64,000 bases of DNA. It comes from Thioalkalivibrio sp. AKL19 (GTDB lineage: Bacteria; Pseudomonadota; Gammaproteobacteria; Ectothiorhodospirales; Ectothiorhodospiraceae). The DNA is taken from NCBI RefSeq assembly GCF_000420165.1, contig NZ_ATUK01000010.1, positions 310,001 to 374,000 of the forward strand, read 5' to 3'. Numbering within the stretch: position 1 is the first letter of the stretch; every line of letters starts with the position of its first letter. The notes beneath the pieces are model-generated. The model saw only the letters and a program-made list of their open reading frames with translations. It was not told the origin of the DNA and made no database searches. Shown here piece after piece: positions 25,732 through 34,731 of the stretch. The position numbers and the translations under genes are program-made.

Positions 25732-27222
25732 TTAGTCCGGATCCCGCACGATGATGCGCCCTTCCATATAGGGGTGCGGGGCGCAGATATAGTTGTACGT
25801 ACCCGGCTCCGTCAGCGTGACGCTGTCGCTCTCGGCATGGCTCAGCATCGCCGTGGCGAACGACTGCGGGCCGCTCATGACGACGGCATTGTGCGCCCCC
25901 GAGGTCTCCCCGAGACCGTAGGTAAAGACGTCCTCGTTCACCCAGGTAACCTTGGTGCCCGATGCCACCTCGACGACCTTCGGATAGAAGGAATTGCCCT
26001 TCATTTCGATCACGACCTCGTCCACATCGTCCCCGAACCGGACCGGACGATCGGCTCGGGCGGGTACCGGGTTCGTCTCGGCCGCGGGGATACCGAACGG
26101 CGAAAGGATACGCCGGGCTTCACCGATCCGCTCCGCGCGCTCCCCCTCGTCGTAGGTGGGACCGTCGGCCAGGACCTCGGAGGGGGTATCCGCATCCGCA
26201 CGCGCGTCCAGCAATCCGATCGCCCCGCGGCTGGTGGCCCCGACGCCATGATCCAGCATGGTGTAGACGCCTTCCTCCGGGGGTATGCGGAACTCGATCA
26301 CCCAGGAGTCCGAGGGACCCGTGGTCACCGTCTGGCCCCCTGGCCACCGTGCTTCCGGGTGCCCCTGCCAGTACACGTAGTCCCAAACGATGCCGACGAT
26401 ATGGAAGGTCGACAGAAGATTGGGGCCGATATTCATGAAATACATGCGCACGTAGTCGCCCGGCCGGACGGGGATGGGGTTCTCCACGTAGCGGAACAGC
26501 TGGCCATTGAAGGCGGTGTAGCTGGCGTCGCCTTCCACCGCCTCCTTGCCGCTGGCGTACAGTTCGTGCTGCAACATGTACAGCTTCAGGTCCGGCTCCT
26601 GTCCCAGATCCGCCTCCAGCTGGTAGGACTTATCGCGGGGCTCGACCACGATCATCCCGTACTGGCCGAACATCACGTGCATCGGGATGGCGTGGCCCCC
26701 CGGGGCGCAGTGATACATGAAGACCCCCGGCGTGGTGGCACGGAAGGTCACCGACTTGGTCTGCCCGGGGAGGATGTGCCCGACGTGCTTCGAGGTCTGG
26801 GTATAGGCGGCATGGATCGAGGCGCCATGCATCACATCGCCGCTATTAGTGATCTCCATGCGCACGATGTCGCCCTCGGTCACCCGCAGCGTGGGTCCAG
26901 GCAGCTTCCCGTCGATCAGGAAGCCGTCGTAGACCACGCCCTGCCCGATGGGCACCTGCCCCTCGTCCAGGTCGATCCGGAACACATGGTCCGGCTCGGC
27001 ATCCTGGGAGACGTACCCGGTCGGGCGGGTCTCGAGGCCCTCGTCGCGCTCGATGATCTCGATAAAGTCGCTGTCGCCGAACAGCGCGCTGAAATCCGGC
27101 CCCGGTGTTGCCTGGGCCACGGGGGCCGCCCACCAAAGCACAACCAGGGCGAGCCACGCCATGCCGCGTGCAGCGACGTGGTCCCGGCCGGTGGGAGCTT
27201 GTACGCATTCCGTCTGTTTCAT
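25732..27222 (-). CDS. nirK: Copper nitrite reductase-like protein with C-terminal cupredoxin
   Basis: The 496-residue exported protein has a signal peptide ending near AQA. Two cupredoxin domains of NirK type follow (about residues 60-210 and 211-340). The type 1 copper site is in GVFMYHCAPGGHAIPMHVM, and type 2 histidines are likely in SIHAAYTQTS and MLDHGVGA, with the FHIVGIVWDYVYW block between. After a linker of about 70 residues a third, plastocyanin-like domain (about 405-496) has its own copper site in AHNAV and YICAPHPYMEGRI. NirK reduces nitrite to nitric oxide in the periplasm; the extra domain could feed it electrons. It is divergent from mscL. Confidence 0.85.
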   Translation of the reverse strand: MKQTECVQAPTGRDHVAARGMAWLALVVLWWAAPVAQATPGPDFSALFGDSDFIEIIERDEGLETRPTGYVSQDAEPDHVFRIDLDEGQVPIGQGVVYDGFLIDGKLPGPTLRVTEGDIVRMEITNSGDVMHGASIHAAYTQTSKHVGHILPGQTKSVTFRATTPGVFMYHCAPGGHAIPMHVMFGQYGMIVVEPRDKSYQLEADLGQEPDLKLYMLQHELYASGKEAVEGDASYTAFNGQLFRYVENPIPVRPGDYVRMYFMNIGPNLLSTFHIVGIVWDYVYWQGHPEARWPGGQTVTTGPSDSWVIEFRIPPEEGVYTMLDHGVGATSRGAIGLLDARADADTPSEVLADGPTYDEGERAERIGEARRILSPFGIPAAETNPVPARADRPVRFGDDVDEVVIEMKGNSFYPKVVEVASGTKVTWVNEDVFTYGLGETSGAHNAVVMSGPQSFATAMLSHAESDSVTLTEPGTYNYICAPHPYMEGRIIVRDPD

Positions 27223-27275: not shown

Positions 27276-27295
27276 GCAGATACAGCTAAATCTGC
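27276..27295. promoter_or_regulatory. Candidate operator upstream of nirK
   Basis: GCAGAT and ATCTGC are perfect inverted 6-bp arms around an 8-base spacer. On the nirK strand a TATAAAGGTTATATG stretch, a plausible -10 region, follows directly. Position and shape would suit an NsrR- or NO-responsive regulator, but the match to the NsrR half-site is partial. Confidence 0.35.
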
Positions 27296-32942: not shown

Positions 32943-34259
32943 TCAGAAGTCCTCGAACTCCATGGCGCGGAAGACGCGGCCGGCGTTCTGGCGGTGCAGT
33001 TCGCCGTAGGTGTCCAGGTGACGGTAAGCGGTCTGGTCGATGTTGTAGGCATCGTTCAACGTGCCGCCCTCGTCCAGGATGCGCTGGACTTCTCCGCGCA
33101 GATACACGAGGTAATCGTGCGTGTAGCGCCGGAGCACATCGAAGTCACTCACGGGGTCGCCGTGGCCCGGGATGATGTAGTCGGCATCCAGGGCCTCCAG
33201 TTCGTGCCAGGTCTCGATCCAGCCGGCGGTGTCGGTGTACTCGAAGATCGGGAGCATGCGCTGGTGAAAGGCCAGGTCGCCGGTAATGAGCGCCTTGCGC
33301 TCGGGCGCCCAGATGGCGATATCGCCCGGGGCATGGCCCGGGCCGAGATAGCGGACCTGGATGGTCTCGCCACCCATGTCCAGGTCCAGGCGGGTGGCGA
33401 AAGTGACATCCGGCGTGCCCAGCTCGGTCATGAAGGACTTGTCGCGGGTGCGATTGGCCGCGCCCTCCAGGCTGGCCTGGCCGTTGGCCTCGATCTCGCG
33501 CCAGGCATCCTTGTGGGCGATCACCGTGGCGCCCTGCTCCTGCCAGTAGGTCATGCCGAGCATGGCATGGCCCTGGGCGTTCTCCAGCACCACGTATTTC
33601 ACTGGCTGGTCGGTGATCTTCCGGATCTCCTCGTGCAGTGATTTGGCCAGCAGGTAGTTGTCGCCGGCGTTCATCACCACCACGCCGTCCTCGGTGATGA
33701 TGAACGACAGGTTGTTGTTGTGGCCGGAATTCTCGTAGGTGGAGGGCTGAGTCGCGCCAATCGCGGACCACACACCGTCGGTTACCTTTTGCGGGCGATC
33801 GTAGAGGAACGAGTCCCGCGCCTTGTCCAGCACGTACAGCGGCAGGCCCGCGTCCTGCCACTCGAAGAAGCCACCGGGATAGTTCTGCACGTTGGTGTAG
33901 CCCATCTGCTGCAGGGTCTGCGCGGCGGCCACGCTGCGCAGGTTCTGGCCGCAGTAGACGACAATCGGGGTGTCCTTGTCCGGGATCTCGCCGGGGGCCT
34001 CGAACTCGATCCAGCCACGCGGGATATTGAGCGTCTCGCTGGAACGGATCTGCCCGCCGGTGTGCTCGATCTCGGTGCGGGTGCGCACATCAATCACCAC
34101 GTGGTCCGGCTCGCTGGCGATCCACTCCTGCAGGCCCTCCTTGTCGATGTTGGTGATCTCGGCGTTGGCCGCCTCCAGCAGCGTATCGCCCGTCAGTTCC
34201 TCGGCCTGCGCGGTACTACCCACCGCGGCAAGGGCCAGCCCCAGCCAGATCGCTCGCAT
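32943..34259 (-). CDS. Exported rhodanese / metallo-beta-lactamase-fold fusion
   Basis: The 438-residue precursor has a signal peptide (cleavage near AQAEE), a rhodanese domain (about residues 35-140) with active loop CGQNLRS, and a metallo-beta-lactamase-like domain (about 160-400). The usual zinc motif HxHxDH is replaced: the aligned stretch reads VLENAQGHAMLGM. Later motifs GPGHAPGDIAIW, LITGDLAFH and YIIPGHGDP are kept. Relatives with both domains handle persulfides or act in sulfur oxidation; here metal binding may be altered or lost. AAGGGAGA precedes ATG 34259. Confidence 0.82.
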   Translation of the reverse strand: MRAIWLGLALAAVGSTAQAEELTGDTLLEAANAEITNIDKEGLQEWIASEPDHVVIDVRTRTEIEHTGGQIRSSETLNIPRGWIEFEAPGEIPDKDTPIVVYCGQNLRSVAAAQTLQQMGYTNVQNYPGGFFEWQDAGLPLYVLDKARDSFLYDRPQKVTDGVWSAIGATQPSTYENSGHNNNLSFIITEDGVVVMNAGDNYLLAKSLHEEIRKITDQPVKYVVLENAQGHAMLGMTYWQEQGATVIAHKDAWREIEANGQASLEGAANRTRDKSFMTELGTPDVTFATRLDLDMGGETIQVRYLGPGHAPGDIAIWAPERKALITGDLAFHQRMLPIFEYTDTAGWIETWHELEALDADYIIPGHGDPVSDFDVLRRYTHDYLVYLRGEVQRILDEGGTLNDAYNIDQTAYRHLDTYGELHRQNAGRVFRAMEFEDF

Positions 34260-34397
34260 CGTCGTTCTCCCTTTTGCATTCATCCCTTCACCATAGCCCC
34301 CTGTTCCGCCGCCGGCCAGGTCTCCGCTTGAGTCAGCCCGTGCGCCGTCTATATTCATGGAGACGGCGCACGGCCCAGTGGCCGAAGGAGCCCCCCG

Positions 34398-34631
34398 ATG
34401 AGCAATCACATGGCGGATGTCACCATCCACATCGACGAGCACACCGATCACGCGTCGCGCGAACGCATCCAGGACACCCTGCGCGAACTGCCCGGCGTAA
34501 TGGCTGCCTCCAGCCACGACGAACGGCCCCACCTGATGGTCGTGGAATACGACCCCGAGCGGATCAACAGCCGCAAGCTGCTGGACACGGTGACCGCCTC
34601 CGGCGTGCATGCCGAACTGATCGGCCTGTAG
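34398..34631 (+). CDS. Small HMA-like protein lacking CxxC
   Basis: The 77-residue protein has the beta-alpha-beta pattern of a heavy-metal-associated domain (VTIHIDEHTDHASRERIQDT, then HLMVVEYDPERINSRKLLDT), but the metal-binding CxxC is absent. It contains several histidines near the N-terminus instead. AAGGAG lies 9 bases before the ATG. Function unknown; it is divergent from the rhodanese fusion. Confidence 0.65.
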   Translation: MSNHMADVTIHIDEHTDHASRERIQDTLRELPGVMAASSHDERPHLMVVEYDPERINSRKLLDTVTASGVHAELIGL

Positions 34632-34731
34632 CGCCGGGGCACTGGCGGATCGCGCCAGCACCCCCTCGTAACCCGCAATCGGCGCATGCCGAAACGGGAC
34701 AACCCCTCACCGGTCTGTCACCATATCGGAA

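Follow-up and report, generated by a model that had tools for sequence, protein, structure and literature searches.

The locus studied here raises the question of what kind of enzyme is encoded by a nirK-like gene whose product carries an additional copper domain. The gene occupies positions 25732-27222 on the minus strand of the window, i.e., the whole 64,000-nucleotide stretch of DNA that was analyzed, which belongs to a Thioalkalivibrio genome of 2.88 Mb in 18 contigs. The open reading frame (ORF) consists of 496 codons, begins with ATG, and is uninterrupted by stops. Neither the ORF nor its domains can be attributed to chance, because the protein (window NirK) shares 50% identity with the three-domain copper nitrite reductase TsNirK (57/113, 73/129, and 58/125 residues in domains I, II, and III) and has orthologs with 77-89% identity in seven other Thioalkalivibrio genomes. 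The best explanation is that the gene very probably encodes a periplasmic enzyme of the TsNirK type, a three-domain copper nitrite reductase that would reduce nitrite to NO and stand alone in a soda-lake sulfur oxidizer.

Domain organization, copper sites, and predicted fold

All features of the protein lie on the minus strand. The first ~38 residues are likely a signal peptide (27109-27222), as judged from the sequence and from a predicted helix of low pLDDT at residues 16-31, with a presumed cleavage site. They are followed by an N-terminal element at residues 45-78 (26989-27090), which contains FIEIIERDEGLETRPTGYVSQD and was delimited by the alignment of its branch and the structural model. 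Domain I (residues ~77-194, 26641-26994), identified by Pfam, alignment, and model, holds the core type 1 copper site (T1CuN) and two of the type 2 copper (T2Cu) histidines, and domain II (residues ~212-340, 26203-26589) was mapped from 6HBE. A linker of residues 341-370 (26113-26202; alignment and model) is predicted to be ordered (block pLDDT 96-98) and leads to domain III (residues 371-496, 25735-26112), an amicyanin/plastocyanin-like cupredoxin supported by Pfam, NCBIfam, alignment, and model. The Pfam matches were Cu-oxidase_3 (92-197) and Copper-bind (411-492, E 6e-16), with weaker matches to Cupredoxin_1 and Cu-oxidase_2. The curated NCBI NirK model, TIGR02376, matched residues 76-345 with 136.4 bits, below its cut-off of 296.3.

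The best of the PDB matches (best 60 of 157) was 6hbe (E 6e-126, residues 82-495), and the runner-up (E 1.8e-39) covered the core only. According to the available part of its description, 6HBE is TsNirK of Thermus scotoductus SA-01, in which a serine (SerCAT) replaces the catalytic aspartate (AspCAT), the core type 1 copper has Gln as its axial ligand, and domain III holds an amicyanin-like type 1 copper (T1CuC) ~14 Å away from the core one (PMC6400189). All mapped copper ligands and catalytic residues of TsNirK are kept in the window NirK, as determined by alignment to TsNirK and the family (TsNirK numbering in parentheses). The His-X4-His sensing loop H132-G-A-S135-I-H137 (26812-26829) contributes a T1CuN histidine, H132 (H75), the SerCAT residue, S135 (S78), and a T2Cu histidine, H137 (H80). 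The core type 1 loop, HCAPGGHAIPMHVM, spans residues 171-184; this region (26662-26712) includes H171 (H114) for T2Cu, and C172 (C115), H182 (H125), and the axial ligand Q187 (Q130) for T1CuN. HisCAT H274 (H216) and ValCAT V276 (V218) are encoded at 26395-26403, Q297 (Q239) and T298 (T240) are also identical, and H325 (H267; 26248-26250) is the third T2Cu ligand, which in TsNirK ligates the T2Cu of the adjacent subunit (PMC6400189). E439 (E385; 25906-25908) would lie on the proposed path from T1CuC to T1CuN. Domain III has a full type 1 site formed by H444 (H390; 25891-25893) and by C480 (C428), H483 (H431), and M486 (M434) in the motif CAPHPYM (25765-25785).

The first-pass annotation had described the protein as a NirK with a fused C-terminal plastocyanin-like donor containing a complete type 1 site. 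The fusion is well supported by these four ligands and the Copper-bind match, but the enzyme is not canonical, having Ser135 and Gln187. Its observation that the core type 1 loop is unusual was correct in that the axial ligand is Q187 instead of Met. It had also named the loss of the type 2 copper histidines as the sign of a different multicopper protein, and all three (H137, H171, and H325) are present; of the catalytic Asp/His pair that it proposed to align, the histidine was found and the aspartate is replaced by Ser135. When the domain limits are taken over from the 6HBE structure, the ~70-residue tether needs to be shortened to a linker of ~30 residues, as ~40 of the 70 belong to domain III.

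A template-free AlphaFold2 model, with an input of 58 sequences (the window protein and those of 57 family loci), had a mean pLDDT of 88.9 and a pTM of 0.86. This model superposed on 6HBE as a single body with three domains (Z 46.4, 2.0 Å over 408 residues, range 77-496), and a Foldseek search with it ranked 6HBE first (E 1.9e-55, TM 0.90 on target). Within each subunit, domain III is predicted to pack against domain I, as in 6HBE. The blocks of lowest confidence were the copper loops, with pLDDT values of 67-82 (residues 171-190), 83 (131-150), and 70 (431-440), and therefore the model is no check on the copper geometry. Since AlphaFold2 may have learned from 6HBE, which we assume could be in its training set, the match in fold is not fully independent of the match in sequence. 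The model supports, rather than proves, a TsNirK-like arrangement.

By analogy with TsNirK, the window NirK would be a copper-loaded trimer. An outside donor, a cytochrome c or a cupredoxin, would pass an electron to the domain III type 1 copper (H444, C480, H483, and M486), from which it would move via E439 to the type 1 copper of the core (H132, C172, H182, and axial Q187). The Cys172-His171 bridge would carry it to the type 2 copper (H137, H171, and H325 of the adjacent subunit), where nitrite would be reduced to NO, Ser135 and His274 standing in for the usual Asp/His pair. On this basis, we infer that the protein is best regarded as a self-wired SerCAT nitrite reductase.

The SerCAT family and its N-terminal element

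Contigs were scanned with a five-sequence alignment, requiring the pattern GVFMYHC or [IF]HAA[YN]TQT, and the best 80 of the 452 related stretches were kept. Because the scan depended on this pattern, was limited to the best 80 of 452, and used a query from a soda-lake genus, the family counts and the share of soda-lake members describe near members only. The closest named relatives in this set (85-89% identity) were Thioalkalivibrio sp. ALMg11, Thioalkalivibrio versutus AL 2, Thioalkalivibrio thiocyanoxidans ARh2, and Thioalkalivibrio sp. ALJ21. By record title, the best 80 of 452 belonged to 17 named phyla, led by Verrucomicrobiota (20/80), Pseudomonadota (10/80), and Balneolota (10/80). Sample tags were found in 41 of the 80 titles, eight of them T3Sed or B1Sed, which we take to be soda-lake sediments. 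The other 33 were CSSed or CSBr, which, following the accessible part of a soda-lake metagenome study, were taken as Cock Soda Lake (PMC6704655). The SerCAT three-domain NirK is a lineage that extends across many phyla and includes many soda-lake members; it is no Thermus oddity.

Comparison of the best 80 of 452 with TsNirK (81 rows, TsNirK numbering) showed that His75, Ser78, His80, His114, Cys115, His125, HisCAT, ValCAT, and Gln239 are invariant (81/81). His267 is kept in 80/81 rows (one gap), Glu385 and His390 in 76/81 (five gaps), and the Cys, His, and Met of T1CuC in 75/81 (six gaps). The Thr240 position is occupied by Thr (58/81) or Ser (23/81), and the axial ligand is Gln in 72/81 and Met in 9/81. 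Met is found in five archaeal rows and in single rows from Acidobacteria, Chloroflexi, Fraserbacteria, and Crenothrix; the proteins of the latter two are named as relatives in the available text on TsNirK (PMC6400189). Since nine of the 81 rows have Met, the axial Gln does not define the whole clade. Within this sample, the family is marked by serine and the fusion, and not by glutamine. The members seen thus have a fixed serine and an axial ligand that varies between Gln and Met, and this natural split on a constant SerCAT background constitutes a test set for axial-ligand tuning of electron transfer.

A tree of 91 rows (103 hmmalign rows minus 13 that were genus-locus copies or partial genes, plus the window protein) included a starred branch that splits the SerCAT family from 13 NirK proteins with Asp. 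The Gln label requires two changes on this tree, and the starred branches force two; the long branches L083, L014, L022, and L075 were flagged as unsure. Two origins of Gln, or a single origin followed by reversion, both fit the tree. An apparent Ser at the CAT column of L011 was rejected as an alignment slip, as the sequence HSIDLH has Asp.

Some loci in the set had features of their own. A 7.8 kb contig of a Spirochaeta MAG (L091) contains a SerCAT three-domain NirK gene and a second NirK-fold ORF with Asp in its sensing loop (HAIDFH); this second ORF has YHNS at the position of the core Cys and seems to be without the type 1 copper cysteine. The locus of an Opitutia MAG (L077) holds a SerCAT NirK together with an AspCAT NirK that ends in a cytochrome c-like stretch (CxxCH). 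In a Verrucomicrobia MAG (L103), the family member is divided over two reading frames, either a broken gene or an assembly error.

The branch that includes Thioalkalivibrio has a conserved motif like FIEIIxRDxxLxxPxTxYVPQD directly before domain I. Its short form, [IV]..RD, was present in the first 130 residues of 41 of the 42 sampled rows of this branch and in one of 16 other rows (L083), which looks like a chance match. Among the sampled alignment rows, the element was absent from those of the TsNirK branch and from the archaeal ones. In the AlphaFold2 model of the window NirK, it is predicted to form a short helix (residues 54-61; block pLDDT 88-90).

Genomic context and cellular role

A search for relatives produced matches at E 1e-20 or better in 21 of 144 genomes, eight with this protein and 13 with the core only. 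The carriers are eight of the 30 genus genomes (G000, G001, G002, G009, G018, G020, G025, and G029); G018 is only 66% complete, and G027 and G028 are among the genomes without individual entries in the search. NirS was not found in any of the eight carriers, and among the 30 genus genomes it was strong in G010 alone and weak in G024 (32.6 bits, above the cut-off). The NO reductase cNorB was also absent from the eight carriers and was found in G008, G010, and G011 (among the matches listed, 11 genomes); that of G010 was identified by a PDB match to nitric-oxide reductase subunit B (E 2.9e-177). NosZ occurred in 2/30 genus genomes, NarG above cut-off in 2/30, and NapA above cut-off in 5/30 (the last among the matches listed), none of them a carrier, and NrfA (PF02335) occurred in 9/30 genomes and 0/8 carriers. 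The differences between carriers and the other 22 genomes (NrfA, 0/8 vs. 9/22, Fisher p 0.07; cNorB, 0/8 vs. 3/22, p 0.54; NnrS, 4/8 vs. 5/22, p 0.20) do no more than hint that, in the genus, NirK carriage goes with a lack of other nitrogen genes, and we do not claim mutual exclusion. NnrS, which is an NO-linked membrane protein, was above cut-off in nine of the 30 genomes, four of which are carriers, the window genome among them.

Among the matches listed, NapA-like ORFs of 925-928 amino acids that scored below cut-off (143-150 bits) were present in six of the eight carriers (G001, G002, G009, G020, G025, and G029), and the best NapA score of the window genome was 83.7 bits. G020 also has a NarG-like ORF of 1186 amino acids below cut-off (103 bits). 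The NapA-like ORFs are perhaps assimilatory nitrate reductases, and nitrite may therefore be made inside those six carriers, which speaks against a purely stand-alone role of NirK in them. The window genome has one strong heme-copper oxidase, a cbb3 oxidase. A small ORF weakly like COX1 positions ~344-399 (L136, G000:C10:62700-63500) was also noticed; ORFs of this type, mostly 140-209 amino acids long, occur in the window genome and many others of the genus, and the 57-residue matched stretch of the window genome matched no NCBIfam family.

In the accessible part of Berben et al. (PMC5328954), the entries for Tv. thiocyanoxidans ARh2 are "not found" for nir and partial for nar; that survey took its reference genes from well-studied Gammaproteobacteria and applied thresholds of identity and coverage. 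The ARh2 contig NZ_ARQK01000044.1 (L028) carries a nirK whose product is 86% identical to the window NirK. Because TIGR02376 rejects the window protein, and the part of the published table that was available lists nir as not found in a carrier strain (PMC5328954), the nitrite-reducing potential of soda-lake sulfur oxidizers may be under-counted. As far as the available text goes, a study of soda-lake metagenomes found some Thioalkalivibrio MAGs that have nirK or nirS but no nitrate reductases (PMC6704655), a pattern that agrees with the genus picture obtained here.

Inspection by eye of the ORFs around the window gene identified a mechanosensitive channel, an ABM-type small protein, and an ABC transporter, and no nitrogen-cycle context. 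In the 80 family loci (best 80 of 452), neighbors were clustered and one representative per cluster was typed by Pfam. The recurrent ones were DUF542/ScdA_N (12), Crp-type regulators (10), and Rrf2 regulators (5), proteins that presumably go with NO stress. SCO1 was directly beside five archaeal family genes, a cytochrome c was close upstream in three loci, a further cupredoxin cluster occurred in five, and small cytochromes c or cupredoxins directly adjoined a few family genes (best 80 of 452). This set fits an NO-producing copper enzyme. A DUF542 protein was found in 0/30 genus genomes, which, like the surroundings of the window gene, counts against the proposed role. Visual inspection of the upstream sequence showed no FNR-type box. 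An imperfect palindrome at 27276-27295 was dropped as a regulatory site because it is not kept in the other upstream regions of an alignment of nine, two of which (L009 and L031) begin within the gene. Elsewhere in the window, the ORF at 32943-34661 (minus strand) reads by eye like a rhodanese joined to a metallo-beta-lactamase-fold protein; in G020 (L005), the ORF directly upstream of nirK is nearly identical to it at the C-terminal end.

The surroundings of the gene bear on the alternative that the protein is a NirK-fold multicopper protein with a cellular role other than nitrite reduction, e.g., an NO, hydroxylamine, or copper(I) oxidase whose Ser site serves other chemistry. The loss of AspCAT, the lack of cNorB and of a dissimilatory nitrate reductase above cut-off in the eight carriers (among the matches listed), and the inability of Tv. 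thiocyanoxidans, the species of carrier strain ARh2, to use NOx as electron acceptor reported in the accessible text (PMC5328954) are all compatible with it, as is the fact that the next full-length match is the Nitrosopumilus protein 9cck. However, 9cck, although the sole other PDB match through the C-terminal domain (E 1.3e-28, residues 86-492, best 60 of 157; Foldseek rank 3), shares only 22-26% identity at 9-10 Å rmsd over the full length, and its superposition on the predicted model gave Z 29.8 and 9.2 Å over 353 residues. Furthermore, TsNirK shares this Ser and Gln and reduces nitrite efficiently (65 s-1, KM 27 µM), according to the part of its description that was available (PMC6400189), and other family loci have neighbors of the NO-stress type, so that we consider this alternative unlikely. 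Still more improbable is a nitrite reductase of the canonical AspCAT kind whose donor is only tethered and free to move. This reading would account for the NirK core fold, the type 2 copper histidines, and HisCAT, but not for Ser in place of AspCAT and Gln in place of the axial Met in 8/8 Thioalkalivibrio proteins, the window's included, or for a linker of ~30 residues that is predicted to be well ordered with domain III placed as in 6HBE.

The three-domain nitrite reductase of the TsNirK type would act in the cell as a stand-alone enzyme, serving to remove nitrite, to supply NO, or as a side electron sink, and not as a step of denitrification. A more specific proposal, made tentatively and somewhat more doubtful than not, is that the SerCAT NirK of soda-lake Thioalkalivibrio works alone, no NO reductase having been found in the genome, and is kept for NO itself, or for the removal of nitrite, and not for denitrification. 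At high pH and salt, the N-terminal element of its branch may alter how electrons enter or how the active site is reached.

Relation to known copper nitrite reductases

A C-terminal cupredoxin fusion, described in the first-pass annotation as a minority architecture, is not in itself novel, because it was published for TsNirK, as the available part of that paper describes (PMC6400189), and is present in many phyla. Our search, with most subscription papers outside its reach, found no second experimental study of TsNirK or of the window NirK. Two-domain enzymes such as those of Geobacillus (3wia) and Nitrosomonas (4kns) share the core fold and the type 2 copper ligands with the window NirK but are without domain III, and the 13 other NirK matches from the same family or class all have Asp (13/13), with Met (12) or Leu (1) as the axial ligand. 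Hyphomicrobium 2dv6 and Ralstonia/Pseudoalteromonas 3ziy and 2zoo also combine a NirK core with a fused redox domain; however, according to the accessible text, it is an N-terminal cupredoxin in 2dv6 and a C-terminal heme c in 3ziy and 2zoo (PMC6400189), in contrast to the C-terminal cupredoxin of the window NirK. The structure matches of these three were confined to residues ~58-385, leaving domain III uncovered. The Nitrosopumilus maritimus multicopper oxidase 9cck resembles the window NirK in having a C-terminal cupredoxin on a two-domain core, and differs in the low identity and high rmsd given above.

The closest parallel is TsNirK, which the window NirK resembles in domain order, SerCAT, Gln axial ligand, HisCAT, ValCAT, the Gln239/Thr240 pair, the equivalent of Glu385, and an amicyanin-type T1CuC. 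Nonetheless, the window NirK has the conserved N-terminal element in addition, and its linker (341-370) is four residues longer than Lys283-Lys308 of TsNirK. N92 of the proposed proton channel is replaced by H149 and V265 by L323, and five positions differ around the pocket of domain III proposed for donor docking (R389 to A443, D391 to N445, K407 to M459, S429 to A481, and I430 to P482). Since the residues around the proposed T1CuC pocket are changed, the window NirK may receive electrons from a donor other than that of TsNirK. The two genes also differ in location, as that of TsNirK sits in a denitrification cluster, as far as the available text describes (PMC6400189), and the window gene does not.

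The accessible part of Pold et al. 2024 assigns Thioalkalivibrio, Caldalkalibacillus, and Thermus to NirK Clade 5 (PMC10999283), from which we infer that the window NirK belongs in this clade. Clade 5 genomes are described there as frequently encoding a formate-dependent nitrite reductase (PMC10999283), in contrast to the Thioalkalivibrio carriers, where PF02335 was found in 0/8. The three-domain SerCAT type, known from TsNirK, and the grouping of Thioalkalivibrio and Thermus in one NirK clade, as given in the available part of that study (PMC10999283), were known before. The present analysis adds the invariant Ser combined with a Gln or Met axial ligand, the N-terminal element of one branch, the occurrence of the gene in eight of 30 genus genomes, the lack of NirS, cNorB, NosZ, and NrfA, and of NarG or NapA above cut-off, in those eight, and the nirK of ARh2.
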